Of a stretch of DNA of 64,000 nt, positions 17,371 through 28,899 are shown in pieces; positions within the stretch are counted from its first letter, which is position 1; each line of letters starts with the position of its first letter. This DNA comes from an uncultured Anaerotruncus sp. GTDB taxonomy: Bacteria > Bacillota > Clostridia > Oscillospirales > Ruminococcaceae. Made by a program: the position numbers and the translations under genes. Under the pieces are notes generated by a model. It was given only the letters and a program-made list of their open reading frames with translations. It made no database searches and had not been told where the DNA came from. The stretch is taken from positions 1-64,000 of the forward strand of contig CALWZG010000022.1 of NCBI GenBank assembly GCA_944385965.1, in the 5' to 3' direction.

Positions 17371-18696
17371 TCAGATAACGCCAACAGCGTTCAGGATGAA
17401 GGTGCAAACGCAAGCGGTCAAACCAGCTACGGTACAACCACCGCCGATGCTCTTCAGGCCTTGAGTAAAGCTCATATTAGCCATGGAAGTTCCAACCCAG
17501 AAAGCGGAGCTGTTACCATGTTTGAATACGAAGCTTCCAGCGGCGCAAGCCAGGAAAGCGGAAAGTGGGGTAATACCCAAAGTGGACAGCATAGGCTGGG
17601 TCATCTGAGCCGCAGTCAAAACCGCCAAAGTGGTAGAACCAGTGATAACATGGAGCAGAATCGCCAAGATGATGGGCAGAATCAAACCAGGAACACCAGC
17701 GTCTACGATTCCCTGAGCGATTTTCTCAGCCACACCAGCGTTTTTAACGAAAGCGGCCAGAGCGCCACCCATACCAGTGATGAACAGAGGCATAGCAGCA
17801 GAAGACATAGAATCGTCTACCCAGTCACTCAGAACTTCCTTGGTGTGCCAACGGGGACCAGTCAGCATCATAGCCAAAACGCAACCGATCAGCAGGGCGC
17901 ACAAAGGAGAACCGATGAACATGAACGCGGAAGTAATGCCGGAATCAGGCATAGTTTGTGTGAAGATGTTCTGAAGAACGATCAAAAGCAGGGGAACCAC
18001 GATGGGCATATAAGCCAAAGTTGTGGAAGGAAGCTGTACATTCTCAGGCTCATCCTTCATGTATTCTTTTTTAGGATAGACCATCTCTTTGAAACCGATA
18101 AATTTGCACCAGAAAACGGTGGTAATCAGAGCGGGGAAAGAAACAATCAGGCCCCACAGGATAGCCTGCCCTAAAGGTACACCTAAAGCGGCGGCAGCGG
18201 CCAGAGGTCCAGGAGTGGGAGGAACCAGAGCGTGGGTAATCTGAGCGCCTACCGACAGAGCGGAACCATAAGCCATCATGGAAACACCAGTTTCCACAGC
18301 CAATTTGGAAACGATGGGGGTCAACAGGATGGTTACAGTATCAGAGAATACAGGGATACCCAGAACAAAAGCGGAGAACGCGATGGCCCAGATTACATTT
18401 TTCTGGCCAACGATTTTGATAGCGGAGGTACAAATCGCCTGAGCAGCACCAGTTTCCTCCAGCATTTTTCCAAGAATACAACCTAATAAGATTACAATTC
18501 CGATATCTTCAATGGTACTGGCAAAGGCACCATTGATGGTTGATTCCATATCGCCAAGCGGGGTCCCAATCGCAACGCCCAATACAATGGCAGCCAGCAG
18601 CAAGCTGGTAACCGCGTTTACCTTGAACTTTGCGATCAAGACGATCATCGCTACGATTACGATTGCGAAGACAACGAGTATGTACGTTGTGGACAT
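17371..18696 (-). CDS. GntP-family permease for an organic/sugar acid
   Basis: Inner-membrane H+ symporter of the GntP family (441 aa, about 12 hydrophobic segments), which imports gluconate-like hydroxy acids. Family landmarks include GIVILLGCILGKMLEETGAAQ, GIPVFSDTVTILLTPI, ALVPPTPGPLAAAAALG and a C-terminal VFKHGNSSAFWVGTSM. ATG 18696 has GAGGAGG upstream. An exact sigma-54 promoter lies 260 bp upstream and a PrpR-like sigma-54 activator gene is next door, so uptake is probably induced by its substrate. Context suggests it feeds the enzymes at 22.4-28.9 kb; the substrate itself is not readable from sequence. Confidence 0.88.
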   Translation of the reverse strand: MSTTYILVVFAIVIVAMIVLIAKFKVNAVTSLLLAAIVLGVAIGTPLGDMESTINGAFASTIEDIGIVILLGCILGKMLEETGAAQAICTSAIKIVGQKNVIWAIAFSAFVLGIPVFSDTVTILLTPIVSKLAVETGVSMMAYGSALSVGAQITHALVPPTPGPLAAAAALGVPLGQAILWGLIVSFPALITTVFWCKFIGFKEMVYPKKEYMKDEPENVQLPSTTLAYMPIVVPLLLIVLQNIFTQTMPDSGITSAFMFIGSPLCALLIGCVLAMMLTGPRWHTKEVLSDWVDDSMSSAAMPLFITGMGGALAAFVKNAGVAEKIAQGIVDAGVPGLILPIILAILLHVITGSTTLAVLTAAQMTQPMLSTLGITPLSAFLACAAGSFVFKHGNSSAFWVGTSMANMSFTQGLKSIGGGCTVAGLTACVCTFILNAVGVI

Positions 18697-18718
18697 AATA
18701 TACGCCTCCTCAATTTTG

Positions 18719-18817
18719 TTAAACACTTTCACGCAGCTCCAATTCACTAACAACCGAAAGGTCTTTTAAACCAGAACGGTATACTCCCCTGTTTATGGCC
18801 CCGTGAAAAGCAATCAT
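18719..18817 (-). CDS. Small open frame in the gntP leader (32 aa)
   Basis: ATG at 18817 has GAGGGG 7 nt upstream and opens a 32-codon frame (MIAFHGAINRGVYRSGLKDL, then SVVSELELRESV) whose stop lies 22 nt before the gntP start, between the sigma-54 promoter and gntP. A second, 7-codon mini-frame (MDQLYYN) behind AAGGAGGG precedes it. It has no recognisable domain. It could be a small co-expressed protein, a leader peptide tuning gntP translation, or chance. Confidence 0.35.
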   Translation of the reverse strand: MIAFHGAINRGVYRSGLKDLSVVSELELRESV

Positions 18818-18956
18818 TCCGAATCCCCTCAGTTGTAATACAATTGGTCCATACCCTCCTTTTCAAAAATTCAGCTTTTGGGTGTGGGATTTAAACATCA
18901 CTCACATGATTCGGATGGTTTTTACGTGTGCGGTAAAAACCTGTTTGTTAATAAAT

Positions 18957-18973
18957 AAGCAATTTGCGTGCCA
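18957..18973 (-). promoter_or_regulatory. Sigma-54 (-24/-12) promoter of gntP
   Basis: The minus strand reads TGGCACGCAAATTGCTT (18973 to 18957), an exact match to TGGCACG-N4-TTGCW with the correct GG-N10-GC spacing. Transcription would start near 18947, giving a leader of about 250 nt before gntP. The adjacent gene at 19193-21097 encodes an activator with the GAFTG motif needed to open such promoters. Confidence 0.92.
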
Positions 18974-19121
18974 AAAAGAAGTGAGCAAGAGATTATATAG
19001 GAAAAATTTATAAAGCCATTAGAAAAAACAGGCTGTTTTTAGGCAAAATCAAAAGAAATAAAAAATTTCTCCAAAATCCATTTCAAAACTATGAACAGCT
19101 TTGCAAGATAAAACAAATAAA

Positions 19122-19150
19122 AACAGTTGATGCATTTTGCATCAACTGTT
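19122..19150 (-). terminator. Perfect inverted repeat: terminator of the regulator gene or activator site
   Basis: Thirteen-bp perfect arms (AACAGTTGATGCA and its complement) with a 3-nt centre. On the minus strand it is followed by TTTTTATTTG, as a terminator for the gene ending at 19193 would be. It also lies about 150-180 bp upstream of the sigma-54 promoter, with a second small palindrome TGTTGCAACA (19147-19156), which is a normal position for an enhancer site. Both roles are possible. Confidence 0.6.
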
Positions 19151-19192
19151 GCAACAAATGAACAATATTTGATGGAGTGCATAAGAACCATA

Positions 19193-21097
19193 TCAGCGAA
19201 GATTATATTTTTGCATTTTTCGCCATAAGGTGGAGCGATTGATGCCCAGTAGCTTGGCCGCCTGGCTTTGATTATAACCGCATTCCTCCAAAGCTTGCTG
19301 AATATGGGCCTGCTCGCTTTCAGGGGAATGAAGCAGAAAAGATTTTCCCGGTTCAACTTCCACATCCCGGGGATAAAGGGCCTCCCGCATCTGCTGCTCT
19401 TTAATGATGGAGTCTCCTTTGCAGTTAACGCTCAGGCGTTCAGCCACATTTTTCAATTCCCGGATATTTCCGGAGAAGGGGAAGGCCTCCAGAATAGAAA
19501 GGGCTTCTGGAGAGATTTGACGGATACATCCCCCAAACTGTTGGTTATACTGGCCGATGAAATGCTGGAACAGGAGAGGAATGTCCTCCTGGCGGCGGCG
19601 CAGCGGGGGAATGTACAGCTTGAGGATTTCCAAACGGAAAAGCAGGTCACGTCGGAAGGCCCCACGTTCCACCTGTTCTTTGAGATTCCGGTTGGTGGCG
19701 GCGATAACCCGCACATCAATGGAGATGACCCGGTCATCTCCCACCCGGCGAATCTCATTTTCCTGAAGCACCCGCAATAACTTGCTTTGAAACCCTAAAG
19801 GAATCTCAGAAATCTCGTCCAAAAACAGAACACCATTATTGGCCAATTCAAACAAACCAGTTTTTCCGCCCTTCATGGTGCCGGTGAAGGCACCTTCCAC
19901 ATAGCCGAACAGTTCACTTTCCAAAAGGTTTTCCGGCAGGGCGGCGCAGTTCACCGCCACAAAAGGCTGGTCCCGGCGGGGGCTGGCGTTGTGGATGCTT
20001 TGGGCCACCAGTTCTTTACCGGTACCGGTTTCCCCCACAATCAGCACATTGGAGGAAACTGCCGCGTATTTTTGTGCAAGATGAATCACCTCATCCATGG
20101 CTTTGCTTTTATGGATGATGTCAGGAAATTGGTATCTGGCCCGCAATCCTTTGTCTCCCAGCTTTTTGCGAATCTGGGTTTCGTTTTGCTGGATTGTGGA
20201 AACATTTTGAAGGGTGACCATAACGCCAGAGGTTTCTCCCGAAACCTGTATAGGGGTGAAGGATGCCAGATAAGCGGACCCGTTTTCCAATTTGTATAAT
20301 TGTGATGGCAAATCACTTCCTGACAAGGCCATGGAAAGGTCTTCCTTCATAAAGGGAAAAGCCTCCGCTACCTTACGCCCCACCAAGGGATGAGAAGAAG
20401 GGGAGGCGATTTTTTCGGCGGTTTTATTGGCAATGGAAATACGCCGCTGAGGTGTGACATAAAGAAACCCATCTTTGATGCTTTGAATCAGGGCCTTGTG
20501 CAGCTCACTTTTTTCCCGTTCATGGGCCACTAATTTCACTGTCCGGAGGGCGGTGTCAATAGCGTCCAGGATGGCGTTGTCGCTTAACTCCACCACCACC
20601 GATGGAATCCGGTATTGAATCGCCCGTAGATGCACAGAGTAGATTCCCAATACCATATCACAGCCATGTTCGATGGCGGATTCCAGGGCTTCGTCAATAC
20701 CTTCAAAATTTTTAGGGGTAAATACCCGGATCTCACATCCAAAAATACTGCTCAAATCCATATGGCCACAGCTTCGGCCAAAGGGCCCCACAAGAGCAAT
20801 TTTTTTAGGATGGAATCTTTGGACACAATTGTATAAGCAGTGGATTACGTCGTAGCCTGTAATAGGCAGTTCCACCACAGGGGCTTGGATACCAGCCTGT
20901 TTAAGCTGTTCGGCGGCGTAGCCTCGGGCAATGACCACATCGCAGTCCAGAGCGTTGGAAGAAAGGTCTGAAAAACGTTCAGAGGTGATTACCGAGACCG
21001 TTTTCTGCAAGTGTCCGCTCTGGGGATGATTGTTAAAGATTCTGTTTACCTTTTCCTCTAGTTCTGGATAAGGGACAATGAAATGAATTTTGGTCAT
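19193..21097 (-). CDS. PrpR-type sigma-54-dependent transcriptional activator
   Basis: Enhancer-binding protein (634 aa) that drives sigma-54 promoters in response to a small molecule. Domains in order: an N-terminal PrpR_N sensor domain (about 1-190), a PAS domain (about 200-310, with SIKDGFLYVTPQRRISIAN), an AAA+ ATPase with Walker A GETGTGKE, the sigma-54 contact loop GAFTG, Walker B LFLDEI and arginine finger region, and a C-terminal Fis-type HTH (SQAAKLLGINRSTLWRKM). PrpR_N domains bind catabolic intermediates, so the effector is probably an acid or aldehyde of the neighbouring pathway. Its obvious target is the promoter at 18957-18973. Confidence 0.92.
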   Translation of the reverse strand: MTKIHFIVPYPELEEKVNRIFNNHPQSGHLQKTVSVITSERFSDLSSNALDCDVVIARGYAAEQLKQAGIQAPVVELPITGYDVIHCLYNCVQRFHPKKIALVGPFGRSCGHMDLSSIFGCEIRVFTPKNFEGIDEALESAIEHGCDMVLGIYSVHLRAIQYRIPSVVVELSDNAILDAIDTALRTVKLVAHEREKSELHKALIQSIKDGFLYVTPQRRISIANKTAEKIASPSSHPLVGRKVAEAFPFMKEDLSMALSGSDLPSQLYKLENGSAYLASFTPIQVSGETSGVMVTLQNVSTIQQNETQIRKKLGDKGLRARYQFPDIIHKSKAMDEVIHLAQKYAAVSSNVLIVGETGTGKELVAQSIHNASPRRDQPFVAVNCAALPENLLESELFGYVEGAFTGTMKGGKTGLFELANNGVLFLDEISEIPLGFQSKLLRVLQENEIRRVGDDRVISIDVRVIAATNRNLKEQVERGAFRRDLLFRLEILKLYIPPLRRRQEDIPLLFQHFIGQYNQQFGGCIRQISPEALSILEAFPFSGNIRELKNVAERLSVNCKGDSIIKEQQMREALYPRDVEVEPGKSFLLHSPESEQAHIQQALEECGYNQSQAAKLLGINRSTLWRKMQKYNLR

Positions 21098-21390: not shown

Positions 21391-22266
21391 TCATTCCGGC
21401 TGGTAGCCGCGGGTAAAGTCAATGAACTTTGCCACATCGCTGTGCAGATGATGATTCTTATTCCAGATCAGGTCCAGCTTGACGATGATGGGTTCCTCAA
21501 AGGGAATCTCAACGATTCCATCCACAGGCGCCACAACACCCCGAAAAAATACCGTGGAGGCGGAGCCGTTGGCTACCAATTCCTTGATAGCGTGGATTTG
21601 GTTGGAATACAGGATTACGTTGGGAGTGACACCATACTTTTTGTATAATTTCTTGATGGCAATGGTCTGATAGGAGTCCTCCCGGAGGAGAACCAAAGGT
21701 TCCTGCTGAATCAGGTTTACTGTGACACTGGATGCTTGCGCTAGGGGATGTCCCTTGGAGACGCAGAACAAAATCTCAGTATCCTGAATGTTCACCCGTT
21801 CAAAATTCATGCTGTCTTGGGCGCTGGTGGAAATAATAGCTACATCCAGACTTCCATCCGCCACAAGCTCCCGCAAATGACTGGAACCCTGCTCGTTAAT
21901 GGTGAGGGTAACATCTGGATAAAGCTTGCGGAACTGCTGGAACATCTGAGGAAAAAGGATGGTGCTGATCATAGGCGGAACACCAATCTTCACTCCCTGG
22001 GCCCGATTGCTCAGGCTGCTCATCAGAGCGCTGAGTTCATCCACACTGTCCAGGATTTTTGAGGCCCGTTCCAAAAAGATGTGTCCTTCATCCGTCAGGG
22101 AGATGCCTTTGCTCAGACGATAAAACAGATTGACACCAAACTCCTCCTCCAAATCCTTGATGGCGTTGGAGATGGAAGGCTGGGTGATATGCAGCTCAGC
22201 CGCCGCTTTGGTAATATTGTTATATTTACACACCGCTCGAAAGTATTGCATTTGGATTAGTTTCAA
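21391..22266 (-). CDS. LysR-family transcriptional regulator
   Basis: A 291-aa LysR-type regulator: N-terminal winged HTH (MKLIQMQYFRAVCKYNNITKA, continuing AAELHITQPSISNAI), linker helix, and a two-lobed effector domain from about residue 90 (VKIGVPPMISTILFP). It is divergent from the CoA-transferase gene with 144 bp between the two starts, the classical arrangement for control of the divergent operon. Its HTH resembles CysL/CbbR-type members, but the effector cannot be predicted. Confidence 0.88.
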   Translation of the reverse strand: MKLIQMQYFRAVCKYNNITKAAAELHITQPSISNAIKDLEEEFGVNLFYRLSKGISLTDEGHIFLERASKILDSVDELSALMSSLSNRAQGVKIGVPPMISTILFPQMFQQFRKLYPDVTLTINEQGSSHLRELVADGSLDVAIISTSAQDSMNFERVNIQDTEILFCVSKGHPLAQASSVTVNLIQQEPLVLLREDSYQTIAIKKLYKKYGVTPNVILYSNQIHAIKELVANGSASTVFFRGVVAPVDGIVEIPFEEPIIVKLDLIWNKNHHLHSDVAKFIDFTRGYQPE

Positions 22267-22410: not shown

Positions 22411-24072
22411 ATGATTCAAAAATCTGAGAGAGCTTGGGACACCCAACGCAAAGAGAAGGTTGCCCGCTTGCAAGCCGCCGCTTCCCTGGCGAACGGCAAG
22501 GTTCTTCCCGAGGAAAATATTGTTAAATTACTGGAAGCCGTCATTCGTCCAGGTGACATCGTCGCCATCGAGGGCGACAATCAGAAACAGGCTGAGACTT
22601 TGGCCAAGGCGCTGTGCAAGGTGGACCCCAAAGTGGTTCATGATCTGCATATGGTCCTGTCCGCTCCTCAGCTGAAAGAACATCTGGATCTGTTTGAGCT
22701 GGGCATCGCCCGGGATTTGGACTTTTCCTTCTCTGGAAACTCCGCTACTCGGATTTCTGATATGATTGATGCTGGTACCGTCCATGTGGGCGCGATACAT
22801 ACTTATCTGGAGCTGTACAGCCGGATGTTCACCGACCTGATCCCCAAGGTGGCCCTGGTAGTGGCGGACGAGGCGGATAAAGACGGAAATCTTTATACCG
22901 GCGCCAACACCGAGGAGACCCCCACCATCGTTGAGGCAGCCGCTTTCAAAGATGGTATCGTAATCTGCCAGGTCAATAAGATTGTGGATAAGGTTACCCG
23001 TGTGGATATCCCTGGCGAGTGGGTAGACTTCGTGGTGGAAACCGAGGTTCCTTACGCTATTGAGCCTCTGATGACCCGTGACCCTGCCATCATCAAGGAT
23101 GTTCACGTACTGCAAGGTATGATGGCCATTAAGGGCATCTACGCCAAACATCTGGTAACCCGCATGAACCATGGTATCGGCTTTAACACCGCCGCTATCG
23201 AGCTGCTGCTCCCCACCTACGGCGAGGAGCTGGGCCTGAAGGGAAAGATTTGCCGCAACTGGGTAGCCAACCCCATCCCTGCGATGATTCCCGCCATCGA
23301 AACCGGCTGGGTAGAGAGTGTTGTGGCCTTCGGTTCTGAGGCTGGTATGGGCGATTATGTAGCTGCCCGTCCTGACATCTTCTTTACCGGAAAAGACGGC
23401 AGACTCCGTTCCAACCGTTGCTACGCCCAGATGGCAGGCCTGTATGGTATGGATATGTTCACCGGTTCCACCTTGCAGATGGACGCTGTTGGTAACTCCT
23501 CTACCGTTACCCAGGGCCGTATCACCGGATTCGGCGGCGCACCCAACATGGGCTCCAACCCCAATGGACGTCGTCATTCCTCCACTCCTTGGAACAATAT
23601 GATTCTGGATCATAATGATCCTATGGCCAGAGGCCGTAAACTGGTTACCCAGATGGTGCGCACCACCATTAAGGGCAAACCCACCTTCGTTGAGCAGCTG
23701 GACGCTGTTGAAGTAGGTAAGAAAGCTGGATTCCCAGAGGCTCCTGTTATGATTTACGGAGATGACGTAACCCATCTGATTACTGAGATTGGTTTGTCCT
23801 ATCTGTACATGGCGGAGAACCTGGAGGAGCGCAAGAAATTGATTGCCGCGGTGGCTGGCGATACTCCGATCGGACACACCATCACCGACAAGGAAATCAA
23901 AGAGCTGCGTGCTGCCGGCAAGGTGATGTTCCCAGAGGATCTGGGCATCGATCCTTCCGAGGCGACCCGTGAGCGGCTGGCTGCCAAGAACCTGCAAGAG
24001 CTGGTGGAGTGGTCCGGTGGCCTGTATAAGATCCCCGAGAAGTTCCTCAAACCCCGTGAGCCCAAGAAATAA
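22411..24072 (+). CDS. Malonate decarboxylase alpha-subunit-like CoA transferase
   Basis: A 553-aa member of the MdcA family; in malonate decarboxylase MdcA exchanges acetate for malonate on the carrier protein. Homology runs the full length: IEGDNQKQAETLAKAL, VHDLHMVLSAPQ, GAIHTYLELYSRMF, DEADKDGNLYTG, MMAIKGIYAKH, FNTAAIELLLPTYGEELGLKG, GFGGAPNMGSNPNGRRH and APVMIYGDDVTHL. None of the other mdc genes (carrier protein, decarboxylase, prosthetic-group synthesis) is nearby, so it probably moves free CoA between acetyl-CoA and a malonate-like acid. ATG 22411 has AAGGAAGGG upstream; an in-frame start at 22324 would add a non-family leader. Codon use looks like that of highly expressed genes. Confidence 0.88.
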   Translation: MIQKSERAWDTQRKEKVARLQAAASLANGKVLPEENIVKLLEAVIRPGDIVAIEGDNQKQAETLAKALCKVDPKVVHDLHMVLSAPQLKEHLDLFELGIARDLDFSFSGNSATRISDMIDAGTVHVGAIHTYLELYSRMFTDLIPKVALVVADEADKDGNLYTGANTEETPTIVEAAAFKDGIVICQVNKIVDKVTRVDIPGEWVDFVVETEVPYAIEPLMTRDPAIIKDVHVLQGMMAIKGIYAKHLVTRMNHGIGFNTAAIELLLPTYGEELGLKGKICRNWVANPIPAMIPAIETGWVESVVAFGSEAGMGDYVAARPDIFFTGKDGRLRSNRCYAQMAGLYGMDMFTGSTLQMDAVGNSSTVTQGRITGFGGAPNMGSNPNGRRHSSTPWNNMILDHNDPMARGRKLVTQMVRTTIKGKPTFVEQLDAVEVGKKAGFPEAPVMIYGDDVTHLITEIGLSYLYMAENLEERKKLIAAVAGDTPIGHTITDKEIKELRAAGKVMFPEDLGIDPSEATRERLAAKNLQELVEWSGGLYKIPEKFLKPREPKK

Positions 24073-24159: not shown

Positions 24160-25578
24160 ATGGAAAAGAAAGACATCAACTACCAAGAATATGTAGCCGG
24201 TTTGGTTGAGAAAGCGAAAGCTGCTCAGAAGGTGGCTGAGGGCTACGACCAGAAGAAAGTAGATACTCTGTGCGCTGCTGTGGCTTGGGCTGCTTGCAAC
24301 GAGGAGTTCCGCAAGACCGCCGCTCAGATGCTGATTGACGAGTCTAAAATCGGTGTATTCCAGGATAAATTCAACAAGATCCGCAATAAGGCGATCGGCG
24401 TTTGGTCCCAGATGAAGGATGAGCGTTCTGTTGGCATCATCTCTCAGGATCCCATCAAGAACACCATGACCTTTGTGAAACCTATGGGCGTTATCGGCGC
24501 TTTGATTCCTGTTACCAACGGTGAGGCTACTCCTATCGTAAAGACCCTGTGGGTTCTGAAGAGCCGCAACGCTCTGGTTATGGCTCCTCATCCTCATGGA
24601 AAGAAGACCTGCCAGTTTGTTGTGAACTACATCCGTGAGGTTCTGAAGAAATATGACGCTCCCGAGGATCTGGTTCAGTGCATCGAGCCTGAGTATGTAG
24701 CTGTTGAGGCTTCCGCTCAGCTGATGAAACAGGCTGACTTCGTAGTAGCTACCGGTGGTACCCCAATGGTTCGTGCTGCTTACAGCTCCGGTACTCCTAC
24801 TATCGGTGTAGGTACTGGTAACGTTACCACCTATATCGACGAGTCCGCTGATCTGGCTGACGCCGCTCACAAGATCATGCAGTCCAAGACCTTTGATAAC
24901 GCTTCTTCCTGCTCTTCCGAGAACAGCGCCGTTGTCAATGAGAAGGTTTATGACAAGTTTGTAGAGGCTTGCAAAGCTGAAGGCGCCTTCATGATTCCCG
25001 CTGATAAGAAAGCCAGCTTCCAACAGACCATTTGGCCTGAGTGGCCCGCCAACCACAACCTGAACCGTATGATTACCGGTAAGACCGCCGCTCAGATTCT
25101 GGAGGTTGCTGGTATCGAGGCTCCCGCTGATGTGAAATGGATTCTGGTTGAGGAGAACGATGGCTTCGGTCATGAGCATCCCTTCACCGGTGAGAAATTG
25201 TCCCCCATCACCACCCTCATCAAGTGCAAAGACTTCGAGGATGGTCTGTCCAAGATGCAGAAGGTTCTGGATTATCAGGGCAATGGTCACTCCTGCGGTA
25301 TCCACACCAAGAACGAGGCTCAGATTCGTGAAATCGGCGCTCGTATGCATGTTGCCCGTATCCTGGTTAACCAGCCTCAGGCTCTGGGTAACTCCGGTGC
25401 GTTCTTCAATGGTCTGCCCATCACCATGTCTCTGGGCTGCGCTACTTGGGGTCACAACAGCACCTGCAACAACCTGACTTGGCACGACATCGTGAACACC
25501 ACCACCGTGTCCATGCCTGTGGAGCCCAAGATTCCTACCGACGAGGAGCTGTTCCCCGCCGAGATCCGCAACGCTTAA
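24160..25578 (+). CDS. CoA-acylating aldehyde dehydrogenase
   Basis: NAD(P)-dependent enzyme interconverting an aldehyde and its acyl-CoA (472 aa). It belongs to the acetaldehyde/sulfoacetaldehyde (SauS)-like acylating group: VIGALIPVTNGEATPIVKTL, MAPHPHGKKT, VVATGGTPMVRAAYSSG, the cofactor/CoA region GVGTGNVTTYID and the catalytic Cys251 in SCSSENS. Such enzymes lack the Glu general base of hydrolytic ALDHs and pass the acyl group to CoA. It follows the CoA transferase by 87 bp containing a GC hairpin. The pairing suggests acid to acyl-CoA to aldehyde, or the reverse. The substrate is unknown. Confidence 0.87.
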   Translation: MEKKDINYQEYVAGLVEKAKAAQKVAEGYDQKKVDTLCAAVAWAACNEEFRKTAAQMLIDESKIGVFQDKFNKIRNKAIGVWSQMKDERSVGIISQDPIKNTMTFVKPMGVIGALIPVTNGEATPIVKTLWVLKSRNALVMAPHPHGKKTCQFVVNYIREVLKKYDAPEDLVQCIEPEYVAVEASAQLMKQADFVVATGGTPMVRAAYSSGTPTIGVGTGNVTTYIDESADLADAAHKIMQSKTFDNASSCSSENSAVVNEKVYDKFVEACKAEGAFMIPADKKASFQQTIWPEWPANHNLNRMITGKTAAQILEVAGIEAPADVKWILVEENDGFGHEHPFTGEKLSPITTLIKCKDFEDGLSKMQKVLDYQGNGHSCGIHTKNEAQIREIGARMHVARILVNQPQALGNSGAFFNGLPITMSLGCATWGHNSTCNNLTWHDIVNTTTVSMPVEPKIPTDEELFPAEIRNA

Positions 25579-25615: not shown

Positions 25616-25648
25616 TGCCACCAGGGCCATGAAAAGGCTCTGGTGGCA
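25616..25648 (+). terminator. Putative terminator after the aldehyde dehydrogenase gene
   Basis: Thirteen-bp stem TGCCACCAGGGCC/GGCTCTGGTGGCA (one G-T pair) with a 7-nt loop; only a short T-run (GTTTTA) follows. It may end or attenuate the first transcript of the island. Confidence 0.6.
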
Positions 25649-25840: not shown

Positions 25841-26740
25841 ATGAGAGAGTCTATTCATAAGTATTTCCAAGTGGGTACCATTCAGTGGATGAGCCACCCC
25901 GCCTCCGCTAAGAGCGTTCTGGATTCCATCAAGACCATCGCTTGCGATGATTTCTTCGATGCCATCGAGGTCTGCAAGATGGATGACGAGACCCGTGTAA
26001 AGGCTAAGGCTATGTTGGAGCAGTCCCATCTGAAGGTTTGCTATGGCGCTCAGCCCCGTCTGCTGGGACCCAAGCTGAACCCCAACGATATTGATGAGGA
26101 AGGCCGCAAGAAGGCTGAGGCTACCTTGATTGAGGCTGTTGATGAGGCTGAGTACCTGGGCGCTAAGGGAATCGCTTTCCTGGCCGGTAAATGGGAGCCT
26201 GAGACCAAAGACCAGGCTTACGCTCAGCTGCTGAAGACCACCCGCAATGTCTGCGATTATGCCGCCAAGAAGGGCATGATGGTAGAGCTGGAGGTTTTCG
26301 ACTTTGATATGGACAAGGCCGCTCTGATTGGTCCTGCTCCTTATGCTGCTCAGTTCGCCGCTGATATGCGTACCACCCACAGCAACTTTGGCCTGATGGT
26401 GGACCTGTCTCACTTCCCCACCACCTATGAGACCAGCAAATTCGTGATTCAGACCTGCCGTCCTTACATCACCCACTTCCATCTGGGCAACGCGGTGGTG
26501 AAAGAGGGCTATCCCGCTTACGGCGACAAGCATCCCCGCTTCGGCTTCCCCGACAGCGCCAATGATGTGGCTCAGCTGGCGGATTACTTCACCGTCCTGA
26601 AAGAGGAAGGCTTCTTCAACGCTGAGAATCCTTATGTCCTGTCCATGGAGGTTACTCCTTTCGGTGATGAGGACGCGGATATCATCCTGGCCAACACCAA
26701 GCGTGTCATCAACCGGGCTTGGGCTCTGGTAGAGGACTAA
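25841..26740 (+). CDS. TIM-barrel sugar/hydroxy-acid isomerase (hydroxypyruvate isomerase-like)
   Basis: A 299-aa member of the xylose-isomerase-like TIM barrel superfamily (AP-endonuclease-2 fold). The four expected metal ligands can be placed: Glu151 (VELEVFD), Asp188 (MVDLSHF), His212 (ITHFHLGN) and Glu270 (SMEVTPF), the same E-D-H-E pattern as hydroxypyruvate isomerase and related epimerases. It is longer than E. coli Hyi by about 40 residues, so the exact reaction is open. It is followed 84 bp later by a hydroxyacid dehydrogenase, which fits isomerisation of tartronate semialdehyde and hydroxypyruvate. It has its own promoter region and strongly biased codons. Confidence 0.75.
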   Translation: MRESIHKYFQVGTIQWMSHPASAKSVLDSIKTIACDDFFDAIEVCKMDDETRVKAKAMLEQSHLKVCYGAQPRLLGPKLNPNDIDEEGRKKAEATLIEAVDEAEYLGAKGIAFLAGKWEPETKDQAYAQLLKTTRNVCDYAAKKGMMVELEVFDFDMDKAALIGPAPYAAQFAADMRTTHSNFGLMVDLSHFPTTYETSKFVIQTCRPYITHFHLGNAVVKEGYPAYGDKHPRFGFPDSANDVAQLADYFTVLKEEGFFNAENPYVLSMEVTPFGDEDADIILANTKRVINRAWALVED

Positions 26741-26824: not shown

Positions 26825-27787
26825 ATGAAAATCGTTATTCTGGATGGTTATACTGAGAACCCCGGCGATCTGAGCTGGGAGGGCTTTGAGCAGCTGGGTG
26901 AGCTGACTGTTTATGACCGCACCCCTTATGAGGATGCTGAAATCATCAAACGTATTGGTGACGCTGACGCTGTTATTGTGAATAAAGTTCCCATCAGCAA
27001 GGCTACCCTGGACGCTTGCCCCAGCATCAAGTACATCGGCGTTCTGGCTACCGGTTACAATGTTGTGGATTACACCACCGCCAAAGAGCGTGGAATCCCT
27101 GTCTGCAACATCCCCACCTATGGCACCGACGCTGTTGGACAGTTCGCCATCGCTATGCTGCTGGAAATCTGCCATCATGTTGCCCATCACAGCGACGCTG
27201 TTCACGCTGGCCGCTGGGAGAACAATGATGACTGGTGCTTCTGGGACTTCCCGCTGATTGAGCTGGCTAACAAGACCATGGGTATCATCGGCTTTGGCCG
27301 TATCGGTCAGGCTACCGGCCGCATCGCCAAGGCTCTGAACATGAAGGTTATCGCTTATGATTCCTATCCCAACGATTCTGGCAAGGCTATTGCCGAGTAT
27401 GTGGATCTGGACACCCTGCTGAAGACCTCCGATGTCATCGCTCTGCACTGCCCGCTGTTCCCTGAGACCCAGGGCATCATCAACAAGGACAACATCGCCA
27501 AGATGAAAGACGGTGTCATCATCCTGAACAACTCCCGTGGTCCCCTGATCGTGGAGCAGGATTTGGCCGACGCTCTGAACTCCGGCAAGGTTTACGCCGC
27601 TGGTCTGGACGTTGTTTCCACTGAGCCTATCAAGGGCGACAACCCGCTGCTGAAGGCGAAAAACTGCATCATCACTCCACACATCTCTTGGGCTCCCAAG
27701 GAGAGCCGTCAGCGCTTGATGGATATCGCTGTGGCGGACCTGAAGGCGTTCATCGATGGCAACCCCATCAACGTTGTGAACAAATAA
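26825..27787 (+). CDS. NAD-dependent D-2-hydroxyacid dehydrogenase (hydroxypyruvate/glycerate type)
   Basis: Reduces a 2-oxoacid to its D-2-hydroxyacid (320 aa). The Rossmann motif GFGRIG (156-161) with Asp179 at the end of the second strand indicates NAD(H). The catalytic triad Arg238 (NNSRGPLI), Glu267 (STEP) and His286 (ITPHISWAP) is intact. The set resembles glycerate dehydrogenase/hydroxypyruvate reductase. AAGGAGG lies 9 nt before ATG 26825. It is in line with the TIM-barrel gene before it and the DUF362 gene 20 bp after it. Confidence 0.9.
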   Translation: MKIVILDGYTENPGDLSWEGFEQLGELTVYDRTPYEDAEIIKRIGDADAVIVNKVPISKATLDACPSIKYIGVLATGYNVVDYTTAKERGIPVCNIPTYGTDAVGQFAIAMLLEICHHVAHHSDAVHAGRWENNDDWCFWDFPLIELANKTMGIIGFGRIGQATGRIAKALNMKVIAYDSYPNDSGKAIAEYVDLDTLLKTSDVIALHCPLFPETQGIINKDNIAKMKDGVIILNNSRGPLIVEQDLADALNSGKVYAAGLDVVSTEPIKGDNPLLKAKNCIITPHISWAPKESRQRLMDIAVADLKAFIDGNPINVVNK

Positions 27788-27807: not shown

Positions 27808-28899
27808 ATGGATAACAGAATCATCGTCACCTACGGCGACGACCCTATGCGGATGACGAAGGAACTGTTAGAAGCGGCTAAGCTCGACCAGATGATTCCG
27901 AAAGGGGCTCTGGTCGGGCTTAAACCGAATCTAGTGGTTGCTAAGCCCGCGGAAACCGGCGCCACCACACATATTGAAATTGTAGCGGCTACCATTGAGT
28001 ATCTGCAAGCCCATGGACACAACAATATTCTGATTTTGGAGGGTTCCTGGGTAGGGGACAGCACCAAACGGGCCTTTAAGGTCTGCGGTTTTGAGGATGT
28101 CTCCAGAAAATACAAGGTTCCCTTGTTTGACACAAAAGGGGACAGTGTCACTGTCAAGTCTTATGGCGGCATCAATATGGAGGTCTGCAATAAGGCTTTG
28201 GAGGTGGACTTCCTCATCAATATGCCCGTTTTGAAGGGGCATTGTCAGACCATTGTTACTGGAGCCTTGAAGAACATGAAGGGCTGTATTTCCGACCGTG
28301 AGAAACGCCACTTCCATGCCCTGGGCCTGGACCGCCCTATTGCCTATCTGAATAAGGTTATCAAACCCCAGTTTATCTTGGGGGATGGCATCTGCGGGGA
28401 TTTGGACTTTGAGGAAGGCGGAAACCCTGTTCGGATGAACCGGATGTTCTGCGGTACAGACCCAGTCCTGATTGACAGCTATATCGCCTCCAATATGGGA
28501 TATGAGCCTCACGATATTGAGTATATCAAAATCGCGGAGGAAATCGGTGTTGGAAGCAGCGATATTGAGCATGCGGACATTGTGGAGCTGAACCGTGATA
28601 CCACCATCGCCCGCCCAACCTCCTCCAGAAAGGTGCAGAAGCTGGCCAAGGCCGCCCGTCCTAAGGAGGCCTGCTCCGCTTGCTATGCCAATCTGATTCA
28701 GGCCTTTGCCCGTTTGGATGATGAGGGCTGGCTGAATGAGTTTGTAAGAAATCCTGTCTGCATTGGACAGGGTTATGAGGGGCAGAGCGGGGAACTTGGA
28801 GTAGGCAAGTGTACCTGTGGTATGAAACACAGTCTGCCTGGCTGCCCGCCCAGAACCCCTGAAATTTTGAAATTCCTGAGGGAGTATGCGAAAAACTGA
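27808..28899 (+). CDS. DUF362 protein with a Cys-rich C-terminus
   Basis: A 363-aa protein of the DUF362 family, function unknown. The core (about 1-230) has KPNLVVAKPAETGATTH, ILEGSWVGDST, INMPVLKGHCQTIVTGALKNMKG and a GDGICGDL turn. The last ~90 residues carry a spaced cysteine set (CSACYAN, VCIGQG, KCTCGMKH, PGCPP) that could bind an Fe-S cluster or zinc. It follows the dehydrogenase by 20 bp, so it probably works in the same pathway, perhaps in electron transfer or as an unusual enzyme. The role is inference. Confidence 0.7.
   Translation: MDNRIIVTYGDDPMRMTKELLEAAKLDQMIPKGALVGLKPNLVVAKPAETGATTHIEIVAATIEYLQAHGHNNILILEGSWVGDSTKRAFKVCGFEDVSRKYKVPLFDTKGDSVTVKSYGGINMEVCNKALEVDFLINMPVLKGHCQTIVTGALKNMKGCISDREKRHFHALGLDRPIAYLNKVIKPQFILGDGICGDLDFEEGGNPVRMNRMFCGTDPVLIDSYIASNMGYEPHDIEYIKIAEEIGVGSSDIEHADIVELNRDTTIARPTSSRKVQKLAKAARPKEACSACYANLIQAFARLDDEGWLNEFVRNPVCIGQGYEGQSGELGVGKCTCGMKHSLPGCPPRTPEILKFLREYAKN

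Follow-up and report, generated by a model that had tools for sequence, protein, structure and literature searches.

A carrier-free MdcA homologue beside a CoA-acylating aldehyde dehydrogenase: a candidate tartronate-to-glycerate route in gut-type Clostridia

Free-CoA transfer in vitro by MdcA-type subunits is reported in the older literature, and Sporomusa malonica reportedly uses malonate by way of a malonyl-CoA step and a Na+-pumping biotin decarboxylase. In the malonate decarboxylase of Pseudomonas, MdcA holds malonate with Arg341, Asn292 and Gln345 over Phe312, the oxyanion holes are built from Asn258, Ile261, Tyr134 and Gly381, and Arg228 lies near the diphosphate (PMC5534430). Phe424 of this enzyme is the main contact with the carrier protein MdcC: F424A breaks the holoenzyme, and F424 is the only MdcC-binding residue demonstrated to be indispensable when changed singly. 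The glyoxylate carboligase operon of Escherichia coli is gcl-hyi-glxR-glxK, and tartronyl-CoA is hydroxymalonyl-CoA.

According to the accessible part of the report on the synthetic TaCo pathway, an engineered glycolyl-CoA carboxylase there produces tartronyl-CoA, which the Chloroflexus malonyl-CoA reductase then reduces, and formation of tartronyl-CoA was measured by a coupled assay with malonyl-CoA reductase (PMC10729300). Tartronic acid is described, in the accessible part of its source, as a plant acid for which most reports concern cucurbits, cucumbers among them (PMC11120510). In a twin study, tartronate in blood ranked second by the number of gut species associated with it (PMC6776654). 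The open-licence literature that we searched, a body of work that could miss earlier biochemistry in subscription journals, describes no gene set for tartronate breakdown. In the accessible portions of that literature, tartronyl-CoA appears solely in papers on or citing engineered pathways.

The MdcA homologue and its neighbourhood

The window, meaning the whole 64,000-nucleotide stretch analysed (contig CALWZG010000022.1 of assembly GCA_944385965.1, an uncultured Anaerotruncus sp.), contains the following features:

22411..24072, + strand: MdcA-like CoA transferase, predicted acetyl-CoA:tartronate CoA-transferase (TIGR01110, PF16957; active-site residues conserved, MdcC-interface residues gone)
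24160..25578, + strand: CoA-acylating aldehyde dehydrogenase, predicted tartronyl-CoA reductase, catalytic Cys251 (SauS-like model; MdcA linkage in three genomes)
25616..25648, + strand: strong stem-loop between the dehydrogenase and TIM-barrel genes, possible attenuator or terminator (-32.8 kcal/mol, z -5.1)
25841..26740, + strand: xylose-isomerase-like TIM barrel, predicted tartronate semialdehyde/hydroxypyruvate isomerase (PF01261, predicted fold, gene context)
26825..27787, + strand: D-2-hydroxyacid dehydrogenase (HADH), predicted hydroxypyruvate reductase (PF00389/PF02826; usual neighbour of the TIM-barrel gene)
27808..28899, + strand: DUF362 protein with a Cys-rich C-terminus (PF04015)
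21391..22266, - strand: LysR-type regulator, divergent, candidate regulator of the operon (PF03466/PF00126)
17371..18753, - strand: GntP permease (unit 17371-21097), with a sigma-54 site just upstream and an adjoining PrpR_N activator gene

An earlier note on this DNA had described the product of 22411-24072 as collinear with MdcA over its whole length. The protein is confirmed as a genuine, complete MdcA homologue: it scores 823.7 bits against TIGR01110 (mdcA), above the NCBI cut-off of 789.15, matches PF16957 with 870 bits over 537 residues, and aligns residue by residue with PDB 5vit at 538 positions; it can also be aligned over its length with 6mpr. The same note had called it a lone homologue, coupled to a CoA-dependent aldehyde dehydrogenase, and both claims held when the genome was searched. 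The whole source assembly (2.34 Mb) encodes one MdcA copy and, at E<=0.001, no match to MdcC (TIGR03130), MdcB/CitG (TIGR03132) or MdcE (PF06833), while nothing similar to MdcD, MdcG or MdcH was evident among the open reading frames of positions 12000-36000 of the window. Searched for through MdcC, MdcB and MdcE, an mdc operon lacking only its alpha subunit was not found elsewhere in the genome, and this explanation was rejected. The evidence for missing partners is strong, yet not absolute, since the assembly is 95.8% complete and lies in 72 contigs. As a control, the TIGR03132 model picks up a relative in E. coli, so that its null result here suggests that the genome is unable to make the special prosthetic group.

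The dehydrogenase gene begins 87 bp downstream of the MdcA gene, and its catalytic Cys is invariant among its relatives. Its best model, NF047625 (SauS), is matched with 497.2 bits, below the cut-off of 600, which counts against a reading in terms of tartronate. Two relatives, about 50% identical to it, belong to inositol operons that contain iolD/iolE (L156, 7951-9339; L158, 7994-9382), and another accompanies an aminotransferase gene near an MmdA-type decarboxylase (L161). One of the inositol-operon relatives exceeds the SauS cut-off (602.6), so that a SauS match does not settle the substrate. In the two inositol operons the aldehyde to be expected is malonate semialdehyde, and the placement of these relatives, there and by the MmdA-type decarboxylase, suggests that the family may be able to handle malonyl-type thioesters. 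As a side observation, the SauS-like dehydrogenases of L156 and L158 perhaps convert malonate semialdehyde to malonyl-CoA, replacing IolA.

A hairpin similar to that at 25616..25648 occupies the same place between the dehydrogenase and TIM-barrel genes of L002, and in the window another strong hairpin lies between the MdcA and dehydrogenase genes. With hairpins at both junctions, the genes may not form one transcript and the TIM-barrel genes may be separate, which weighs against tartronate, as does the lack of any transporter gene found inside the operon. The GntP permease was set aside for that role: a perfect sigma-54 -24/-12 match (TGGCACGCAAATTGC) lies upstream of it at 18973 on the minus strand, and with this site and its PrpR-type regulator we treated it as a separate unit. 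Permease and PrpR_N activator probably form a self-contained acid uptake unit. The divergent LysR gene has a 35% identical counterpart in the same place in L002, and a DUF362 relative (55%) adjoins the TIM-barrel relative of L154.

Carrier-free MdcA proteins in other genomes

We searched for the gene pair in 298 genomes of the family, 394 of the order and 391 of the class, in one genome of the genus to which G084 belongs, and in GTDB contigs. MdcA is paired with an aldehyde dehydrogenase in at least three loci, in three genomes, among the matches listed; the pair is thus rare. Beside the window, these are L002, from the uncultured Clostridiales RUG743 (79% identity to the window in MdcA, 59% in the dehydrogenase), and L089, from G084, which belongs to the family but to a different genus (72% and 73%). 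The three MdcA proteins (hereafter the trio) form one clade with support 100/100. Four other genomes of the window's own genus lack this MdcA, a patchy distribution that speaks against the tartronate interpretation. In L002, the dehydrogenase gene is followed on the same strand by a TIM-barrel gene, inside which the contig stops, again a point against. No TIM-barrel gene adjoins the pair in G084, a further adverse point; there, MdcA and dehydrogenase are directly followed by a gene for a beta-hydroxyacid dehydrogenase whose best model is TIGR01505, tartronate semialdehyde reductase (193.5 bits, below the cut-off of 340.75).

In two further genomes of the family, at loci L090 (9761-14993) and L091 (9806-13765), MdcA adjoins genes for an MmdA-type CoA decarboxylase of the biotin-dependent, Na+-pumping type, and L090 additionally carries a biotin carrier and a Na+-pump beta subunit. 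MdcC was not detected in either locus, and both apparently encode a carrier-free malonate route. Recruitment of a carrier-free MdcA is hence not unique to the window.

All ten malonate-binding and catalytic positions (N59, Y134, R228, N258, I261, N292, F312, R341, Q345 and G381) are identical in the window protein. The surface that binds MdcC is not preserved in the trio: F424 is deleted, E466 is I or V and I490 is D in all three, and R521 is P in two of three. Across the alignment, all 84 other homologues have an aromatic residue at the Phe424 position; a few of their loci, such as L020, have no flank in which a carrier gene could show. The residue is deleted in exactly five proteins, those of the window, L002, L089, L090 and L091, all found without a carrier gene. 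Loss of the carrier and loss of the MdcC interface therefore coincide. Realigning the region by a slower method gave the same outcome; in the window protein the counterpart of Phe424 is Thr419 by phmmer and a gap by MAFFT, and the aromatic residue is absent both ways. As the five proteins form a single clade (support 94/93), one or two loss events, rather than five, are implied. These comparisons point to a branch of carrier-free MdcA proteins whose simple signature is the deleted Phe424, and for which the label “malonate decarboxylase subunit alpha” is misleading.

The trio carries additional changes of its own. Of the 186 alignment columns that do not vary across 85 other MdcA homologues, the carrier-free malonate type included, four differ uniformly in the trio. 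Three of the changes, F226M, T296A and L297M in Pseudomonas numbering (M221, A291 and M292 in the window), lie at most five residues in sequence from Arg228 and Asn292, which bind the ligand in the Pseudomonas enzyme. They would fit an altered substrate, without proving it. The earlier note suggested that another pathway has recruited the protein as a free-CoA transferase. This is well supported, as the carrier and prosthetic-group genes are absent, the residues that contact MdcC are lost and the linkage to the dehydrogenase recurs in three genomes.

A proposed route to glycerate and its rivals

The putative metal ligands of the TIM-barrel protein (E151, D188, H214 and E270) are invariant in 20 homologues, and its predicted model (pLDDT 94.5) has a fold matching many epimerases and isomerases, 1k77 among them, a match that does not discriminate between families. 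The protein matched no curated hydroxypyruvate isomerase model and IolO only weakly (25 bits), and a PDB profile search with its family returned a single marginal match, Art22. No characterised close relative was found in these searches, to the detriment of the tartronate assignment.

Relatives of the TIM-barrel protein are present in 22 of the 298 family genomes, and HADH lies near the TIM-barrel gene in 15 of 20 loci outside the window operon (58-81% identity; one a fragment). Some gene calls in these relatives came from a simple open-reading-frame caller made for the analysis and were checked by homology where used. Gcl-like carboligase genes stand beside the TIM-barrel and HADH pair in seven loci (L136, L141, L144, L145, L146, L147 and L150), tartronate-semialdehyde-reductase-like genes occur in four TIM-barrel loci (one above its cut-off, 470 versus 397, in L138), a GarL-like aldolase in one (L140), and glycerate kinase adjoins in L145 and L151. 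The source genome itself encodes a glycerate kinase (402 bits). The simplest reading is that the two enzymes form a module that would take tartronate semialdehyde through hydroxypyruvate to D-glycerate, with various feeds, and that in the window MdcA and the dehydrogenase would stand in as its source. Two properties of the Gcl-like proteins detract from it: they score 600-632, below the cut-off of 791, and the ThDP enzymes of L141 (4829-6493), L144 (13246-14913), L145 (3885-5576) and L150 (3708-5384) carry Glu (RHEE) at what we take to be the position of Val51 in E. coli Gcl. Separately, split transketolase genes, often with a zinc alcohol dehydrogenase, adjoin the TIM-barrel and HADH pair in L137, L142, L143 and L151; tartronate semialdehyde alone does not explain these four loci, which perhaps belong to an undescribed sugar or sugar-acid pathway.

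We propose that the operon probably serves anaerobic use of tartronate (hydroxymalonate). The MdcA-like protein would convert acetyl-CoA and tartronate to tartronyl-CoA and acetate with no carrier protein, and the aldehyde dehydrogenase would use NAD(P)H to reduce tartronyl-CoA, yielding tartronate semialdehyde and free CoA. The TIM-barrel protein would then isomerise tartronate semialdehyde to hydroxypyruvate, the 2-hydroxyacid dehydrogenase would reduce this to D-glycerate, and D-glycerate would enter glycolysis by way of a glycerate kinase whose gene lies elsewhere in the genome. In G084, the beta-hydroxyacid dehydrogenase would replace the isomerase and HADH steps. We infer the substrates, the direction and the CoA donor from the observed families, gene order, missing carrier genes and residue patterns. 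The substrate of MdcA must be a malonate-like diacid, that of an aldose-ketose isomerase a 2-hydroxyaldehyde and that of the last enzyme a 2-oxoacid. All three requirements would be satisfied by tartronate, tartronate semialdehyde and hydroxypyruvate, whereas malonate and sulfoacetate fall short on the last two.

A malonate route is unlikely, although several observations speak for it. MdcA would here form malonyl-CoA and the dehydrogenase malonate semialdehyde, for 3-hydroxypropionate or another use, with the TIM-barrel and HADH genes as an unrelated neighbouring unit. The malonate-binding residues are all intact, but the trio's changes adjoining ligand-binding residues are seen in no malonate-type MdcA. 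The half-identical dehydrogenase relatives in inositol operons and by the MmdA-type decarboxylase suit malonate, as does the hairpin separating the MdcA and dehydrogenase pair from the TIM-barrel gene; yet the same-strand adjacency of dehydrogenase and TIM barrel is retained in L002 at just 59% dehydrogenase identity, and malonate semialdehyde is unusable by the chemistry of the TIM barrel and HADH. The G084 reductase could use malonate semialdehyde, but scores higher as a tartronate semialdehyde reductase (193 bits) than as HIBADH (152 bits).

It is less likely still that the enzymes run in reverse, oxidising glycerate or hydroxypyruvate through tartronate semialdehyde and tartronyl-CoA, with MdcA saving the thioester as acetyl-CoA and tartronate being excreted. 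The reactions of CoA transferases and of CoA-acylating dehydrogenases can run either way, and sequence gives no direction, but two NADH per glycerate would be a poor choice for a fermenter. Elsewhere, moreover, the TIM-barrel and HADH genes adjoin expected C3 suppliers (Gcl-like, GarL-like) and glycerate kinase, which points towards glycerate as the product.

Activation of sulfoacetate by MdcA, with the dehydrogenase as SauS, is very improbable. Malonate and sulfoacetate are isosteres, alike in shape, and no curated model fits the dehydrogenase better than SauS (497 bits), but the score misses a cut-off that the inositol-operon relative passes, and the TIM barrel and HADH would be left without a role. 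The genome has no match to the glycyl-radical enzyme family PF02901 and hence no isethionate lyase, and we rejected the sulfoacetate/isethionate route on this ground. Equally hard to credit is a reading of the protein as a leftover or displaced alpha subunit from a malonate decarboxylase of the usual kind, its other genes lost or outside the assembly: the draft status would allow it, but the reading frames are intact, the MdcC interface is gone and the gene pairing is retained in three genomes.

On balance, we favour a natural tartronyl-CoA route in gut-type Clostridia, in which the carrier-free MdcA would be an acetyl-CoA:tartronate CoA-transferase and the adjacent dehydrogenase a natural tartronyl-CoA reductase, leading from tartronate to glycerate. 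If so, the two natural enzymes would be candidates for use in the synthetic CO2-fixing TaCo route, and their genes a marker for tartronate use in microbiomes.

Comparison with described systems

The window protein shares with MdcA of malonate decarboxylase (5vit, PMC5534430) its fold, its full length, about 60% identity and the malonate-binding and catalytic residues. It differs in that its genome lacks MdcC, MdcB and MdcE, that Phe424 is deleted and E466 and I490 are replaced, and that it is coupled to a reductase, not a decarboxylase. The malonate system of L090 and L091 likewise has a carrier-free MdcA, which groups with the trio at 94/93, but its partner is an MmdA-type decarboxylase and its MdcA retains the NPHPTLIP loop of malonate enzymes. 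SauS, the acylating sulfoacetaldehyde dehydrogenase, is the closest curated model of the window dehydrogenase, which falls below its cut-off in a genome without the glycyl-radical enzyme and where sulfonate genes were not seen.

The lower part of the proposed route is that expected from the E. coli gcl operon, namely conversion of tartronate semialdehyde to D-glycerate, through hydroxypyruvate or by direct reduction, followed by glycerate kinase, whereas its tartronate semialdehyde would derive from tartronyl-CoA, not glyoxylate, and its isomerase belongs to another branch of PF01261. With the synthetic TaCo pathway, as described in the accessible part of its report (PMC10729300), it would share the reduction of tartronyl-CoA towards glycerate; in the window, tartronyl-CoA would instead arise from tartronate through CoA transfer.
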